39,793 nucleotides of DNA from Rhodothermales bacterium (GTDB taxonomy: Bacteria; Bacteroidota; Rhodothermia; Rhodothermales; ISCAR-4553): positions 1 through 39,793 of the forward strand of contig JALSSK010000407.1 of the NCBI GenBank assembly GCA_026984335.1. The letters are read 5' to 3'. The notes beneath the pieces were generated by a model. It searched no databases. It had not been told where the DNA came from and worked only from the letters and a program-made list of their open reading frames with translations. Below, piece after piece: positions 6,389 through 38,791 of this stretch; the stretch's first letter is position 1, and each line of letters starts with the position of its first letter. A program made the position numbers and the translations under genes.

Positions 6389-9300
6389 ATGAACAAACTC
6401 ATAGAACTATCCTTACGGAGCCGGTTGCTCGTCCTCGTGCTGGCGGTGCTGGTCATGGCGGCGGGCTGGCTCAGTTACCGGCAGTTGCCCGTCGATGCGT
6501 TTCCGGACGTGTCGCCTTCGCTCGTGCAGGTCTTTACCCTCACCAGCGGCCTCGCGCCCGAGGAGATCGAGCAGTACGTCACGTATCCCATCGAGACGGC
6601 CATGAACGGGCTGCCGAACCTGGAACGGATCCGGTCGGTGTCGAACTTCGGCCTCTCGGTGGTCAACATCTACTTCGAGGACGGGACGAACATCTACTTC
6701 GCGCGGCAGCTCGTGGGCGAGCGCCTGCAGGAAGCGCGCGACCAGATCCCCGAGGGCTTCGGCGAGCCCGAGATGGGGCCGATCTCCACCGGCATGGGGC
6801 TCGTGCTCTTCTATTACCTCGACGACACCACCGGGCAGTACAGCCTCGAAGAACTGCGCACGATGCAGGACTGGATCGTCAAGTACAACCTCCAGACCGT
6901 GCCGGGGGTGACCGAGGTGCTCGGCATCGGCGGCTTCGAGAAGCAGTTTCAGGTGCAGGTCGATCCGGCGGCGCTCTTGCAGTACGGCGTCACCATCCAG
7001 GAACTGCTGGAGATCATCGAGGCGAACAACCTGAACGTCGGCGCGCAGTTCATCGAGCAGAACAGCGAGGAGTTCATCGTGCGCTCGGTGGGCCTGGCGA
7101 CGGGGCGCTCGGACCTCGAAAACATCGTCGTCAAGACGGTCGACGGCACGCCGGTCTTCGTGCGGGATCTGGCCGAGGTGACCATCGGCGGGGCCATCCG
7201 GCGCGGCGTGGAGACGATGGACGGCCGCGGCGAGATCGTGGCCGGCATGGTGATCAAGCTCTTCGGCTCGAACGCCTCGACGGTCATCGGCCGCGTGGAA
7301 GAGAAGGTGCGGGAGATCAACGACATTCTGCCCGAGGGGGTGCGGATCGTGCCGTATTACGAGCAAAAGACGCTCGTCGAGTCCGCCGTGTCCACGGTCA
7401 CGAATGCGCTGTGGCAGGGCATCGTGCTGGTGGTGCTGGTGCTGTTCGTCTTCCTCGGCAGCTTCCGCCCGAGCGTGGTGGTGGCGCTGGCGATCCCGTT
7501 CTCGGTGCTCTTCGCCATGATCTGGATGAAGCAGTTCGGCATCTCGGCCAACCTGATGTCGCTCGGAGGGCTGGCCATCGCCATCGGCATGATGGTGGAC
7601 GGGGCCATCGTGATGGTCGAGAACGTGGACCGGATGTTGCGCGAGGCGGCCCCGGACGAGCCGCGCGTGCACGTGGTGGCGCGGGCGTGCAAAGAGGTTG
7701 CGCGGCCCGTGGCCTTCGCCATCCTGATCATCGTCGTGGTCTTTCTGCCGCTGTTCACGCTGCAGGGCGTCGAGGGCAAGACGTTTCGCCCGCTGGCCTA
7801 TACCGTGGCGCTGGCAATGTTCGGCTCGCTCATTTTTGCCCTCTTCGTGGCCCCGGTGCTTTCGGACATCCTGATGCGCCGCGCGGCGCGGCAGGCCGAC
7901 GGCTCGAAGCCGAAGCCGGGTCTGGCCGAGCGCGCCCTGGCCCGGGCCATGGAGGCCTACCGCCCGCTGGTGAGCTTCTTCGTGCGCTCGCGGAAGTGGG
8001 CCGTCGCGCTGTCGGTGGCGCTGCTCATCCTCGGCATGACGATCTTCCCGTTCCTCGGCTCCGAGTTCACGCCGACGCTTCAGGAGGGGACGCTCGTGCT
8101 CCGGCTGACGATGGCCCCCTCGATCTCGCTCCGGGAGAGCACCGAGACGACGCTCCGGGTGGAACGCCGTCTGATGCAGATCCCGGAGATCCGCCACGTC
8201 GTCAGCCGCATCGGGCGGGGCGAAGTCGGCGCGCACACCGACCCGATCAACAGCGCCGAGATGTACCTCATCCTCGAACCCGAGGACACCTGGCGCTTCG
8301 ACGATCAGGAAGCCCTGCTCGAAGGCATCCGCCGGGACGTCGGCGAGATCCCGGGCGTGCTGACGAACTTCACGCAGCCCATCCAGATGACGGTGGACGA
8401 ACTGCTCGAAGGCGTGCGCGCCGAACTGGCGATCAAGCTCTTCGGCGACGACCTCGACGTGCTCAAGGAGAAGGCGGATGAGATCGTGGCCGCCGTGCAG
8501 CAGGTGCCGGGCGCCGCCGACGTGCAGGCCGACCAGATCAGCGGCACGCCGCAACTCCGCATCCGGGTGGACCGCCAGGCCATCGCCCGCTACGGCGCGA
8601 GCGTGGCCGACGTGCAGCAGACGATCCGCGCCGCCATCGGCGGCGAGACCGCCGGGCAGATCTTCGAGGGCATCCGACGCTTCGACATCTACGTGCGTCT
8701 CAAGCCCGAGTATCGCGCGACGCCGGAAGCCATCGCGGGGTTGCTCATCCCCACCCCCGGCGGCGCACTCGTGCCCCTGAACGACCTCGCCGAGATCGAC
8801 GAGATCATCGGTCCGCGCCAGATCACGCGCGAGAACAACCAGCGCTTCATCACCATCCAGCTCAACGTCGAGGGGCGCGACATCGGCTCTTTCGTCGAGG
8901 AAGCGCAGGGGTTGATCCGCCAACGGGTGGATCTGCCGACGGGCTATTTCACGACGTGGGGCGGGCAGTTCCGGCTTCAGCAGGAAGCGAACAAACGGCT
9001 GGCCGTGGTCGTGCCGATCACGCTGTTGTTGCTGTTCCTGTTGCTCTACGCGAGTTTCAACTCGCTCCGGAACGCGGCGCTGATCGTGCTCAACATACCG
9101 CTGGCGCTCGTGGGCGGCATCGTGGCGCTCTTCATTACCGGGCAGAACCTTTCGGTGCCGGCTTCGGTGGGCTTCATCGCGCTCTTCGGCATCGCGCTCG
9201 AAAACGGGATGGTGCTCGTGACGTACCTCAACCAACTCATCGAGGACGGCGTGGAGATGAACCGCGCTTCGGTGGAGGGGGCGTTGCTTCGCCTGCGCCC

Positions 9301-27067: not shown

Positions 27068-30052
27068 ATGAACACTATTCTGTTTTTATCGATTGCCCTT
27101 CGGTTGATCGGGCTCGGGTGGGCGCTGGTGTTGGTGTGGCGCTTGCGGGACTGGCGCCTGGGATTCCTCGCGGTTTTATATGTCCTGATGGCCCTTCGCC
27201 AGACGCTCACGCTGGCGACGGTATGGGAGGGGACGGCGCTTTTGGCGCCCGGGCATATGGTCGAACTCCCGGGACTGCTCGTCAGCCTGTTGATGCTGCC
27301 CGTCCTGCTGGGGCTGGAGCGGTTCATCACTTCGCAGAGGCAAGCCAAAGAGCGGATCGAAGCGGCGGAACAACGCTACCGCAAGCTCTTCGAGTCCGCG
27401 CCGATCATGTACCTCAAGACGGAGGATCGCGACGGGGCGTCGTACGTCACGGCCTGCAACGATCGTTTTCTTGAGCGCCTCGGGTATGCGCGCGAAGAGG
27501 TGGTGGGGCAACCACTGGCCCGTTTCTATACGCCCGGTTCGAAGGAAAAGCTTTTTGGAAGCGGGTATCATCGCAGTCTTCAGGGGCTCTCCGTCGAAGA
27601 AGAACGCAACCTGGTGAGACGCGACGGAGGCGTGATCGAGACGCTGATGCACGCCGTGCCGGAGTTCGACGAGCGGGGGCGGGTCAAGGGCGTCCTTGCG
27701 ATGTACGTGGACATGACGGAGCAGCGGCGGACCGAGCGCGCGCTGGAGGAGCGCATCAAGCGGATGCGTCTGCTCTACGAGATCACTTCGCAGAGGGGGC
27801 GGGACCTGGACGCACAATTGCACGAAGCCCTTCGGCGAACCACGGAGCTGCTGGGCATGGAGATCGGCCTCCTGAGCCGCATCGAGGACGGGCAATATCA
27901 CATCGAGGCATGCTTTGCCCCCGGCACCGGGCTGGAGCCGGGGCAATCCTTCGATCTCCACCATACGTACTGCGAAGAGGCTTGGCACAACGACGAGGTG
28001 CTGGCGATCGATCATGCCGGGGCCTCGGCCTATGCCCGGCATCCCTGCTACGTCCACTTTCATCTGGAGTCCTACCTCGGCGTGGCCGTCAGGACGGGCG
28101 AGAAGCGCTCCGGCACGCTGAGTTTCTCGAGCACGAAGCCGAAGCGCCCGCCCTTCTCCGAGGCGGATCGCGAAACGATACGGCTCTTGTGCCAGTGGAT
28201 CGGCTCGATGCTGGAACGCCGGCAGGCGCGGGCGGCGCTGGAGGCCTCCGAAGAGCGGTTCGCCAAAGCCTTCCACGCCAGCCCGGACTCCATCACCATC
28301 ACCCGGGTGCGGGACGGCCTCTTCATCGACGTCAACGAAGGGTTCCACCGCCTGAGCGGATACGCGCGCGAGGAGGTCATCGGCCAAACTTCCGAAGCGC
28401 TCGGGATATGGCGGTATGCCGACCGCAGCCGGATGGTGGAGGGGTTGCAACGCGAAGGCCGCGTGCGAGACCTCGAACTCCCGCTGGTCGACAAAACGGG
28501 AGCGGTGCACATCTGCCGCGTTTCTTCCGTCGTGATAGAACTCGGCGGAGAACCGTGCCTCGTGGCCATCACGCATGACGTCACCGAACAGAAACGCATC
28601 GAACAGGCGCTTCGCCTCCACGAATATGCCATCGCCTCGTCGGTCGAACCCATCGCGTTCGTCGATATGGAGGGCGTGCTCACCTACGTGAACCGCGCTT
28701 TCCTGGAAGCGCTCGGATATGCGCGCGAAGAGGAGGTCGTCGGAAAGCGGATCCTGGAGTTCCGGGTCGAGCCTTTTTCCCTCGACGTGCTCGAAAAACA
28801 GATCAGAGCCGGAGGATACTGGAAAGGCGAACTCAGGACCGTTCGCTCCGATGGGAGGTGGATAGACATCTATCTGGCGGCCAACCTGATCGTGGACGAA
28901 AACGGCAAGCCGCTGGCGATCATGGCTTCCTTCCGGGACATCACCGAATGGAAACGGGCCCAGGAGGACCTGCGGAAATCGGAGGAGAAGTTTGCCAAGG
29001 CGTTCCATGCGAGCCCCGACATCATCGGCATCGCGACGTTGGAAGAGGGACGCTTGATCGAGGTGAACGAGGGGTTCGAGCGCGTGCTCGGGTATCGCCG
29101 CGACGAGGTGATCGGGCGCACGACCGCCGAACTGGGCATCTGGGGCAAGATGAGCGATCGCGCCGACTTCATTCGCCGCATCCGCAGCGGGGAGTTCGTG
29201 AGCAACGTCGAGGTGACCTTCCGCACCCGTTGGGGCGAGCTTCGGACGGGCCTCTTCTCCGGCGATCGGATCGAACTCAACGGCCGTTCATGCCTGCTGA
29301 CCATCACACGCGACATCACCGAGCGCAAGCGCATCGAGGAGCAGCGCGAGGAACTCGTGCGCGACCTCGAAGCGAAGAACGCCGAGCTGGAACGCTTCGC
29401 CTATACCGTCTCGCACGACCTGAAATCACCGCTGGTGACGATCAAGGGCTTCCTCGGACTGCTCGAAAATGATGCGCTCCTCGGGGACGTGGAAGCGCTC
29501 CGCCGGGACGTGGCTCACATCAACAGCGCCGCCGACAAGATGGCCCGGCTGCTCCGGGATCTGTTGGAGCTCTCGCGGATCGGGCGCGTGGTCAACCCGC
29601 CGGAGGCCGTCGACCTGTCGGGTCTGGTGCGCGAAGCCGTGGAGATGCTGGGCGGTCGGCTCGCCGAGCGGGGAGCCGAAGTGCGCGTGCCCGCCCGCAT
29701 GCCGGAAGTCTTCGGCGACAGGCTTCGGCTGCTGGAAGTGTTTCAGAACCTGATCGACAACGCCCTCAAGTTTATGGGCGATCAGCCGGCGCCGCGTGTG
29801 GAGGTGGAGGCGCGCGTCGCAGAGGGCGAGGTGGTGTGCTCCGTGCGGGACAACGGCGTCGGCATCAATCCCCGGTATCTGGAGACCATCTTCGGCTTGT
29901 TCAACCGCCTGGACAACAACGTCGAGGGCACCGGCATCGGACTGACGCTGGTGAAGCGGATCGTCGAAGAGCACGGAGGACGCATCTGGGCCGCCTCGGA
30001 GGGAGAGGGCCGGGGCGCGACGTTCACCTTCACGCTGCCGCTGCGGTCATGA
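27068..30052 (+). CDS. Multi-PAS/GAF sensor histidine kinase
   Basis: N-terminal TMs, several PAS/PAC blocks, GAF-like block, H-box LERFAYTVSHDLKSPLVTIKGF, N/G boxes NALKFM, DNGVGINPRYLETIFGLFNRL, GTGIGLTLVKRIVEEHGG. Confidence 0.95.
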   Translation: MNTILFLSIALRLIGLGWALVLVWRLRDWRLGFLAVLYVLMALRQTLTLATVWEGTALLAPGHMVELPGLLVSLLMLPVLLGLERFITSQRQAKERIEAAEQRYRKLFESAPIMYLKTEDRDGASYVTACNDRFLERLGYAREEVVGQPLARFYTPGSKEKLFGSGYHRSLQGLSVEEERNLVRRDGGVIETLMHAVPEFDERGRVKGVLAMYVDMTEQRRTERALEERIKRMRLLYEITSQRGRDLDAQLHEALRRTTELLGMEIGLLSRIEDGQYHIEACFAPGTGLEPGQSFDLHHTYCEEAWHNDEVLAIDHAGASAYARHPCYVHFHLESYLGVAVRTGEKRSGTLSFSSTKPKRPPFSEADRETIRLLCQWIGSMLERRQARAALEASEERFAKAFHASPDSITITRVRDGLFIDVNEGFHRLSGYAREEVIGQTSEALGIWRYADRSRMVEGLQREGRVRDLELPLVDKTGAVHICRVSSVVIELGGEPCLVAITHDVTEQKRIEQALRLHEYAIASSVEPIAFVDMEGVLTYVNRAFLEALGYAREEEVVGKRILEFRVEPFSLDVLEKQIRAGGYWKGELRTVRSDGRWIDIYLAANLIVDENGKPLAIMASFRDITEWKRAQEDLRKSEEKFAKAFHASPDIIGIATLEEGRLIEVNEGFERVLGYRRDEVIGRTTAELGIWGKMSDRADFIRRIRSGEFVSNVEVTFRTRWGELRTGLFSGDRIELNGRSCLLTITRDITERKRIEEQREELVRDLEAKNAELERFAYTVSHDLKSPLVTIKGFLGLLENDALLGDVEALRRDVAHINSAADKMARLLRDLLELSRIGRVVNPPEAVDLSGLVREAVEMLGGRLAERGAEVRVPARMPEVFGDRLRLLEVFQNLIDNALKFMGDQPAPRVEVEARVAEGEVVCSVRDNGVGINPRYLETIFGLFNRLDNNVEGTGIGLTLVKRIVEEHGGRIWAASEGEGRGATFTFTLPLRS

Positions 30053-36100: not shown

Positions 36101-36267
36101 GGCATTTCCTCCCGTATGATTGAGGGATGTGCGCAACCGGAACGACCGGACCGTCACGGGGATCGGGGCCCGCACCCGCCACCCGACTCAGGAACGTGTG
36201 TGCGGGCCCCGCACCTACCGCCGTGACGGGCGACCCGTGTTCGCCCCCCTAAGATCGCCCATCGTTT

Positions 36268-36355: not shown

Positions 36356-37183
36356 TTACCGAACCTCGAAGGTCAGCGTCGCCCACTTCGACTCGTAGTC
36401 CGCCTCGCCGTCATCGACCCTGGCCATGTGGATGAGCTTCACGTACCACCGTCCGGCGGCTTCGAGGGGGATGCGCGCCACGCCCGTCTCATCCGTGCGC
36501 GTCCGGACGGCGACCCGGTGTTCGCCCGCCGCATCGTGGCCGTGATAGCCTTCATGGCTGGCCTCGACGTACTGGTTGGCGACGGGCCGGCCGTCAACGA
36601 GGACGAGGACCTCGAACGTGTCGCCGACGCCGAGGGCGTAGGGGTTGTTCACCGGCACGATCTCGGCGGGATAGCCGAGGCGATGCCCGTAGGCGCCGGT
36701 GCGCCGGTCGCCTACCTGAAGGACGGCCTTGACGTGTTTGGAATACCGCTCCCGCGCATCGAGGTCCAGTTCTCCGTCCCGTTTCCGCGCTGCGAGCACG
36801 TCGAGGACGCCGTCGTGCTCGAGGTATTCGTTGAAATCCTTGGCGGAGAGCGCGATCATGTTCGGAGCCGTCGAGACGCCGACCACGTAGGTGCCGGGGG
36901 CGTCCGTCTCGAGGTCGAGGAGCGTCAGCGTGCCTTGCTCGCGCCAGCGGGACGTGTCGGGGTGCGTCACCTCGTCGCCGGGCCCGACGACGCTCACGTC
37001 GGTCATGCGGCGACGCGCGATCGTGCCTTCGCTCTTGTCGAACGTGCCGTTGACCAGCGCAATCGTGACGCTCGAGTGGGGCTTGAGAAAATAGGTGTCC
37101 AGTTTGATGAAGAGGGTGTGGGCGTTCAGGAGGCCGGCGAAAAGGAGGAAGGCCACGCCCGTCAGGAGGGCTTTCTTTTTCAT
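36356..37183 (-). CDS. DUF4198-like secreted protein
   Basis: MKKKALLTGVAFLLFAGLLNAHTLFIKLDTYFLKPHSSVTIALVNGTFDKSEG...; Ig-like periplasmic architecture. Confidence 0.8.
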   Translation of the reverse strand: MKKKALLTGVAFLLFAGLLNAHTLFIKLDTYFLKPHSSVTIALVNGTFDKSEGTIARRRMTDVSVVGPGDEVTHPDTSRWREQGTLTLLDLETDAPGTYVVGVSTAPNMIALSAKDFNEYLEHDGVLDVLAARKRDGELDLDARERYSKHVKAVLQVGDRRTGAYGHRLGYPAEIVPVNNPYALGVGDTFEVLVLVDGRPVANQYVEASHEGYHGHDAAGEHRVAVRTRTDETGVARIPLEAAGRWYVKLIHMARVDDGEADYESKWATLTFEVR

Positions 37184-37242: not shown

Positions 37243-37288
37243 TAAAAAAACGACAGCCGGGTCGCATCGTCTGCAGACCCGGCTGTCG
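37243..37288 (-). terminator. Intrinsic terminator in the leader of the DUF4198 gene
   Basis: Perfect 13-bp arms CGACAGCCGGGTC (37251-37263)/GACCCGGCTGTCG (37276-37288), T7 on the minus strand at 37244-37250. Confidence 0.88.
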
Positions 37289-37424
37289 CTAGCCACACAT
37301 GTTCGGACGGTTTTGCTGCGTTTCCCTCGTCGCGCCTCTCCTTGATGAGCGGGCGAGGAGGGGAGTGGTTCCAGGTGGGTCTTCCGGTGAGTGGTTGCAA
37401 GCCTGCCGCCTGGCCGTCCGAACA
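37244..37424 (-). ncRNA. Candidate structured leader RNA / riboswitch-like element of unknown class
   Basis: Perfect 11-bp closing stem TGTTCGGACGG/CCGTCCGAACA (plus-strand arms 37300-37310 and 37414-37424), internal helices, then terminator hairpin. Confidence 0.6.
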
Positions 37425-37446
37425 CCCGCAAGAAAGGAAGGAGAAC

Positions 37447-37483
37447 CTGAAGACTTCCTTAAAAACTCCTTAAATTTTCTTAA
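37447..37483 (-). promoter_or_regulatory. TTAAG array, site 4 (upstream of structured leader and DUF4198 gene)
   Basis: Plus-strand CTGAA at 37447, CTTAA at 37458, 37469, 37479: periods 11, 11, 10 bp. Confidence 0.7.
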
Positions 37484-37522
37484 GGTGTTCGAGCGAGGGC
37501 CGCCTTTTTGGCACGGGTGCGA

Positions 37523-38791
37523 TCATCGCAGGGATTGGATGACGATGAGCCGGAGGAGCACGGTTCCGGAGCCCTCGAGCCGGAGCCCGACGGGGCCGGG
37601 CGCGGGAGCGTCGCTGTGCCCGTGGACGACGAGCTTGCCGTTGACGTAGCCGCGAAAGTGGGTTCCGTCGGCGACGACGCGCAGGGTGAACCAGCCGGCG
37701 CCGGCCTGTTCTTCCTCGTCGAAGATCTCGGTGACGCCGTCGCGCACCCGTCCCTGGCGCATCTTCCCGTCTTCGAGACCGAGGAAGTTGTAGTTCTGCG
37801 CGTCGCGCACGTGGTGGACGACGCGGACGGAGCCGTCGAACCGGTCGAGGTTGAGCGTCACGTCGCCCTGAATGCTTGCCAGCGAATCGCCGGTCACGAA
37901 GAGGACGGGGCCGCCTTCGAGGCGCAGGGCCAGTTGCCCGTCCTGTTCCTCCACGTTCAGGTCCTCGGGACTGCCTTCGAAGAAACGGAACCGTTCGGTG
38001 AGCGCGCGTTGCGCACCCGCGCCGGGCTCCCAGCTCCACGAGCCGTCTTCGGTCGTGACGGGATGCATGACCATGGCGGCCGCGTCGTGTTCTTCGCCGG
38101 GGGCGTGCTCGTGGTCCGCCTCTTCGGCCGCGTCGTGTTCTTCGCCGGGAGCGTGCTCGTGGTCCGCCTCTTCGGCTTCTTCGTGCTCTTCGCCGGGAGC
38201 GTGCTCGTGGTCCGCCTCTTCGGCTTCTTCGTGCTCTTCGCCGGGAGCGTGCTCGTGGTCCGCCTCTTCGGCTTCTTCGTGCTCGGCGTTGGGATTATAC
38301 GGCTCGAGCCCTTCCTGAGGGACGGCCTGCACTCCGAGTCCGTATTGGAAGACCATCTGCGCGCCACGGTCCCCGGTCTGGAAAAGCAGGAAAATGCCTC
38401 CGGCTCCGATCACGACGGCGAGGAGGTTCAGGACTTTCCCGGCCGGCAGGCGCTCTTTGTGATCGAACCAGAGCATGGCCAGGCGAGCGAGGGCGAAGAG
38501 CCCGTAGAACCATACGGTCCGCTCGGCCCAGTCGGCATGGTCGGTGAGGAGCGTTTGAGCGGCGGCGGGCGCCAGGACGGCGTCGGCGGCGGCGCGGCCC
38601 GTGAAGAACGCCGCGAGCGCGGCAACGGCTCCGAGCGTGAACAGCGCGACGGCGACGGCGCGGATCTCCGACCGCTTCGCGGGCACGACCAGCGCGACGA
38701 CGTCGAACAGCACGGCGATGGTGAGCAACGCTATCGGGAAATGGATGAGGAGCGGGTGAATGCTTGGCGCCCATTCGGGAAGAGAAAACAT
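37523..38791 (-). CDS. DUF2231-like membrane domain, His/Glu-rich repeats, DUF1080/lectin-like C-terminal domain
   Basis: N-term IHPLLIHFPIALLTIAVLFDVVAL; middle (HEEAEEADHEHAPGEE)n; C-term jelly-roll-like YNFLGLEDGKMRQGRV...GYVNGKLVVHGHSDAPAPGPVGLRLEG. Confidence 0.8.
   Translation of the reverse strand: MFSLPEWAPSIHPLLIHFPIALLTIAVLFDVVALVVPAKRSEIRAVAVALFTLGAVAALAAFFTGRAAADAVLAPAAAQTLLTDHADWAERTVWFYGLFALARLAMLWFDHKERLPAGKVLNLLAVVIGAGGIFLLFQTGDRGAQMVFQYGLGVQAVPQEGLEPYNPNAEHEEAEEADHEHAPGEEHEEAEEADHEHAPGEEHEEAEEADHEHAPGEEHDAAEEADHEHAPGEEHDAAAMVMHPVTTEDGSWSWEPGAGAQRALTERFRFFEGSPEDLNVEEQDGQLALRLEGGPVLFVTGDSLASIQGDVTLNLDRFDGSVRVVHHVRDAQNYNFLGLEDGKMRQGRVRDGVTEIFDEEEQAGAGWFTLRVVADGTHFRGYVNGKLVVHGHSDAPAPGPVGLRLEGSGTVLLRLIVIQSLR
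38081..38288. repeat. 48-bp in-frame tandem repeat, about 4.3 copies
   Basis: Copies begin about 38081, 38129, 38177, 38225, with a partial copy at 38273; encodes EEADHEHAPGEEH(D/E)(A/E)A on the minus strand. Confidence 0.9.

Follow-up and report, generated by a model that had tools for sequence, protein, structure and literature searches.

The 340-nt gap between the DUF2231 and DUF4198 genes of this Rhodothermales genome appears to encode, on the minus strand, a small terminated RNA whose best explanation as a whole, and one to which we lean, is that of a copper-inducible sponge for a small RNA (sRNA) that probably represses outer-membrane proteins. A motif within this RNA, GCAACCACTCACCGGAAGAC, led to a conserved sRNA that at least 28 genomes within the order encode on the strand opposite to the motif. 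The more specific proposition, for which we see about even chances, is that transcription of the sponge is driven directly by a copper-sensing two-component system, and that the sponge neutralises an ECF-sigma-dependent sRNA, conserved across Rhodothermales, by which a SusC/TonB receptor is repressed, whereby metal stress would lead to outer-membrane remodelling via RNA-RNA titration.

Layout and promoter of the predicted RNA

Throughout, the window is the whole stretch of DNA that was analysed (39,793 nt), and the RNA predicted at 37424-37244 is referred to as the window RNA. Read along the minus strand, the gap contains, in this order, an array of TTNAG boxes, a CTTG element, a stem (P1) that encloses two hairpins, a 13-bp hairpin and a T7 tract. 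The features are:

37523-38785, minus strand: DUF2231 gene, upstream; ends the DUF411-DUF2231 run and is a syntenic anchor common with the sister genus
37447-37485, minus strand: four-box TTNAG array, CTTAA / TTAAG / TTAAG / TTCAG, 10-11 bp apart; expected to bind an OmpR-family response regulator
37429-37432, minus strand: CTTG core-promoter element, exactly 19 nt from the start of the last box
37244-37424, minus strand: predicted terminated RNA of ~180 nt, its start placed by promoter geometry
37414-37424, minus strand: 5' arm of P1, TGTTCGGACGG
37371-37413, minus strand: P2 hairpin, CCAGG...CCTGG, the loop presenting the target-like motif
37379-37398, minus strand: target-like site GCAACCACTCACCGGAAGAC, complementary to the conserved sRNA seed
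37363-37370, minus strand: second AACCACUC, between P2 and P3, a partial repeat of the motif, assigned from sequence and fold
37324-37362, minus strand: P3 hairpin
37300-37310, minus strand: 3' arm of P1, CCGTCCGAACA
37251-37288, minus strand: intrinsic terminator hairpin, 13 perfect pairs (37276-37288 / 37251-37263)
37244-37250, minus strand: T7 tract of the terminator
36356-37180, minus strand: DUF4198 gene, downstream; if it lacks a separate promoter, transcription gets there only by reading through the terminator

The architecture described in the initial annotation was largely recovered: the perfect 11-bp P1 (37414-37424 / 37300-37310), the 13-bp terminator hairpin with its T7 and the TTAAG site upstream (site 4 there, the fourth TTNAG array here) are all present, and the proposed inner helices stand as regards CCAGG...CCTGG and the existence of two inner hairpins, whereas the second helix takes a slightly different form in the energy model. 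By itself P1 is unremarkable in this GC-rich contig, with 8 seed hits in the window vs. 4.9 expected. The whole 125-nt domain (37300-37424) has a fold z of -4.1, and a value as low was found in 2 of 400 random windows of the same contig. Across the 39.8 kb, no hairpin other than the terminator, on either strand, combines 8 or more perfect pairs with a T-run (5 or more T in 8) after it. Promoter array and terminator, both sequence predictions, would give a discrete transcript with its own ends, the predicted start coinciding with the first base of P1 or adjoining it.

The TTNAG-N6-TTNAG-N6-TTNAG pattern occurs 12 times in the genome and 0 times in the reversed control. Four arrays lie in the window, upstream of genes for P-II, a 469-aa protein and DUF5676/copper-type ATPase, and of the window RNA, and the 19-nt spacing to CTTG is common to nearly all the other arrays. 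With a matrix derived from 22 sites (four boxes 11 bp apart plus A-N2-TTG), the array of the window RNA scores 67, and 2 Mb of random sequence never scored above 12. Of 40 relatives, 9 have TTNAG arrays with CTTG at a fixed spacing (14 nt past the last box), and matches in controls are few, which marks the array as a real promoter element. On contig C125 of the same genome, and likewise in the sister genus (G001), genes for an OmpR-type regulator and a membrane kinase run divergently from the array, which makes a CusRS-like two-component system the likely regulator of TTNAG arrays. CusRS and CopRS are copper two-component systems that consist of an OmpR-type regulator and a membrane kinase; the likeness lies in such a pair adjoining copper efflux genes, and the difference in the array, which here comprises four TTNAG boxes at 11-bp intervals and a CTTG 19 nt further along. 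Gene content and the type of two-component system point to copper as the inducer.

Several other features were observed in the course of this analysis. Further TTNAG arrays are located in L106 (G000 contig C213) at 5637, 7892 and 9074-9122, upstream of a cupredoxin-like/FAD-enzyme operon, a patatin-like gene and a SusC-like receptor, and one of them has at least 5 consecutive boxes. Just past the TTNAG promoter of DUF5676/ATPase, the window contains a long GC-rich near-perfect hairpin (36145-36230, minus strand; CCGTCACGG...GGGGCCCGCAC...GTGCGGGCCCC...CCGTGACGG) that has a fold z of -2.9 and is without a T-run. In the DUF2231 protein, an Asp/Glu/His-rich segment (EEADHEHAPGEEH; window 38060-38270) is tandemly repeated and possibly binds metal. 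A gene for a 994-aa multi-PAS/GAF histidine kinase (27068-30052, plus strand) lies near the copper genes but on the other strand.

A conserved small-RNA family and its apparent SusC-like target

The motif is widespread across the order. Its opposite strand carries the sRNA family at the following loci:

L254:1188-1275, minus strand (G000 contig C22), and 27 others, e.g., L117, L121 and L256-L280

The layout of the 28 copies is GNAAC-N16/17-CGYA, 9-11 nt, GTCTTMCGRTGAGTGG, a GC hairpin and a T-rich tract, with a near-invariant seed, GTCTTCCGATGAGTGG; promoter and terminator suggest that this is the transcribed strand. The promoter, with AAC at -35 and CGT at -10 separated by a spacer of 16-17, fits 27 of the 28 members, the exception (G153) fitting the spacing less well, and the AAC/CGT pair is what characterises ECF-sigma promoters (PMC4153023). 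A T-rich tract past the hairpin was found in 25 of the 28 members. RNAalifold yielded no consensus on all 28 members, among which the hairpin misaligns across families, and a subset of 13 members from one family was used instead. In this subset, the terminator hairpin covaries: 15 of its 21 pairs show compensatory changes on both sides, 94.9% of cells are paired, and covariation as high was reached in 0 of 500 shuffles.

No Rfam family matched in the 21 sRNA loci scanned, and searches of the literature found no description of sRNA regulation in Rhodothermales; the family is previously undescribed and absent from Rfam. Among known regulators, RybB and MicA are sigma-E-dependent sRNAs of E. coli that repress outer-membrane proteins (OMPs). 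The family described here resembles them in its ECF-sigma promoter, 5' seed and OMP targets, and differs in phylum, in its TonB/SusC target and in having no sequence relation to them. The combination of a seed with a terminator is also common to FopS of Bacteroides thetaiotaomicron, another member of Bacteroidota, which has a single-stranded 5' seed and a Rho-independent terminator and pairs at the start codons of SusC homologues (PMC11697453). However, FopS has canonical sigma-ABfr promoters and 14 paralogues (PMC11697453), in contrast to an ECF-type promoter and about one copy per genome here, the two seeds are unrelated, and FopS is deposited in Rfam (PMC11697453), where the family described here is without a match.

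In six genomes (G000, G001, G172, G228, G229 and G165), a sequence complementary to the seed, CCACTCATCGGAAGAC or closely similar to it, is located three bases before an ATG. All six genes encode a protein that starts with a signal peptide and a CarboxypepD_reg-like domain, and both of the target proteins that were scanned (G000, G172) contain TonB Plug domains, which identifies them as SusC-like. The G001 frame is short, so that this target gene may be broken. Predicted pairing energies at the susC starts are -32 to -41 kcal/mol. The sRNA probably represses a SusC-like TonB outer-membrane protein by blocking its translation.

Predicted pairing with the window RNA and its counterpart in the sister genus

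Allowing up to 3 mismatches, the 16-nt consensus CCACTCATCGGAAGAC occurs once in the 40-kb window, inside the window RNA and on its transcribed strand, where the site (37379-37394) differs from the consensus by one mismatch. The predicted sRNA-pairing site in the window RNA is CCACTCACCGGAAGAC. Predicted pairing of the window RNA with the sRNA of the same genome (-30.2 kcal/mol) makes this the best site of the contig, barely ahead of the next (-29.5); over 19 nt, the site has 3 differences from the complement of that sRNA and pairs less well than the corresponding site in G001. In the predicted fold, the motif is unpaired at 0.72 vs. 0.40 for the rest of the window RNA. Cofolding without pseudoknots prefers the window RNA's own fold over pairing with the sRNA, and a contact through the loop must therefore be assumed. 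The other loops of the window RNA matched the starts of the copper regulon no better than shuffles did.

G001, which represents another genus of the same family, has a predicted counterpart RNA, expected to be ~130 nt long, in the same place after the DUF2231 operon. Its SHOCT-DUF411-DUF2231 run includes one extra SnoaL-like gene, and beyond the run come a degenerate TTNAG array (score 16, random matches never exceeding 12), an ORF-free hairpin-rich stretch (fold z = -3.8), a GC terminator and then another TTNAG promoter. The two copper-locus RNAs have CCACTCAYCGKAAGACNCACC in common, with a local alignment score of 28; dinucleotide shuffles score as high in 0.02% of cases and real pieces of the G001 locus in 0.3%. 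The G001 copper-locus RNA is predicted to pair with its own sRNA at 19 of 19 positions (-40.3 kcal/mol), which beats the pairing at susC (-33.6), so that complementarity to the sRNA seed is found in both copper-locus RNAs, completely in G001 and more weakly in the window. Each of the genomes G000 and G001 contains three near-exact copies of the motif, in the sRNA gene, the susC leader and the copper-locus RNA, of which the susC-leader copy has diverged in G001. The other strand of both copper-locus RNAs has no correctly spaced ECF promoter and no T-run past the hairpin, and we therefore read these RNAs as the target-like and not the seed-like strand. Their fold is without covariation support because only two such RNAs are known and their structures differ.

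Under the sponge model, 37424-37244 (minus strand) would be a stand-alone RNA of ~180 nt ending at its own terminator, turned on by a CusRS-like system alongside the copper-efflux genes via its own TTNAG promoter. The P2 loop would show a copy of the mRNA site that is recognised by the ECF-sigma-type sRNA (5' seed GUCUUCCGAUGAGUGG plus terminator). During copper stress, the window RNA would pair with this sRNA and titrate it, relieving the repression of the SusC-like protein, and DUF4198 would probably be reached by partial readthrough.

Alternative readings and relation to known sponges

The leader has a closing stem, a multi-branch fold, a terminator and a T-run, as a riboswitch would, and the initial annotation had proposed a metal- or metabolite-sensing attenuator for DUF4198. 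Against this, P1 and the terminator fold independently and coexist in folds of growing transcripts, in which no antiterminator competing with the terminator was found; when P1 is forbidden, the best alternative structure is 13 kcal/mol worse, and there is therefore no competent antiterminator. The homology expected of DUF4198 leaders did not materialise, as no leader like the window RNA lies upstream of DUF4198 relatives in the loci fetched from other genomes. Comparison of the window RNA to Rfam produced nothing that reached the gathering score, the hits at E <= 10 being sub-threshold chance matches, in agreement with the annotation's failure to recognise a known riboswitch consensus. The fold was not found elsewhere by a structure-based search (a single-sequence covariance model over 115 genomes) or by a DNA search of 252 genomes of the class, and a search of plasmids gave zero matches. 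The matches of the DNA search looked chance-level at first, and two of them, in G236 and G165, later turned out to belong to the sRNA family. As no true homologues of the fold came to light, covariation is absent; the conserved part is not an aptamer but a 16-20-nt sequence that matches the predicted target site of a separate sRNA. We regard a riboswitch as very unlikely, and it is the annotation's other suggestion, a terminated sRNA under the control of the TTAAG regulator, that survives. Two further candidates were rejected: the one covariance-model match of low E value, G156:C60, falls beside parS-like sites in the mnmG-rsmG interval and has not preserved the helices, and an integron attC was ruled out by inspection, its arms being wrongly oriented.

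The motif could instead make the leader itself a target, with the ECF-type sRNA pairing with the 5' leader of DUF4198 and altering its stability or readthrough, which would place DUF4198 under envelope-stress control and involve no sponge. The RNA does lie upstream of DUF4198, for which a separate promoter was not recognised, and its site matches the motif of the susC leader; however, the site is ~200 nt from the start codon and is followed by a strong terminator, and in G001, since the following gene is served by a separate TTNAG promoter, the equivalent RNA is no leader, so that we consider this unlikely. The recurrence of the motif in the same sense in all three contexts would also be expected if the sRNA family were transcribed in the sense of the window RNA and the motif were a protein site, the RNAs acting as CsrB-like decoys that capture an RNA-binding protein whose sites would include the susC leader. 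We dropped this very unlikely model because of the ECF promoter on the other strand, where -35 and -10 elements at fixed spacing are found in nearly all members and a T-rich tract in 25 of 28, whereas T-runs on the sense strand have no obvious preceding stem. That the element has no function, being the terminator of the DUF2231 operon together with a copy of the motif that arose by chance or has decayed, is a reading to which we give little weight: it would account for the presence in two genomes only, for the differing folds and for the mismatch of the window copy to the consensus, but not for the full TTNAG promoter that precedes the RNA or for the recurrence of the motif at the same syntenic place in G001.

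The sponge model has precedents in E. coli, where sponge RNAs are derived from 5'-UTRs and from within ORFs, as in the pairs ChiZ/ChiX, IspZ/OxyS and FtsO/RybB (PMC7815308). These resemble the window RNA in being short terminated RNAs that carry an sRNA's target site, and one of the sponged sRNAs, RybB, represses outer-membrane proteins; in contrast to them, the window RNA has its own promoter, predicted to be regulated by a two-component system, and sits in a copper locus. What emerges from the analysis is an sRNA family that spans the order and is missing from Rfam, whose seed is near-invariant, whose promoter is of the ECF type and whose target is apparently SusC-like. It further suggests a stress-inducible sponge inside a metal-resistance locus and, as the regulation of sponges themselves is little known and left open (PMC7815308), this RNA would provide a concrete regulated case.
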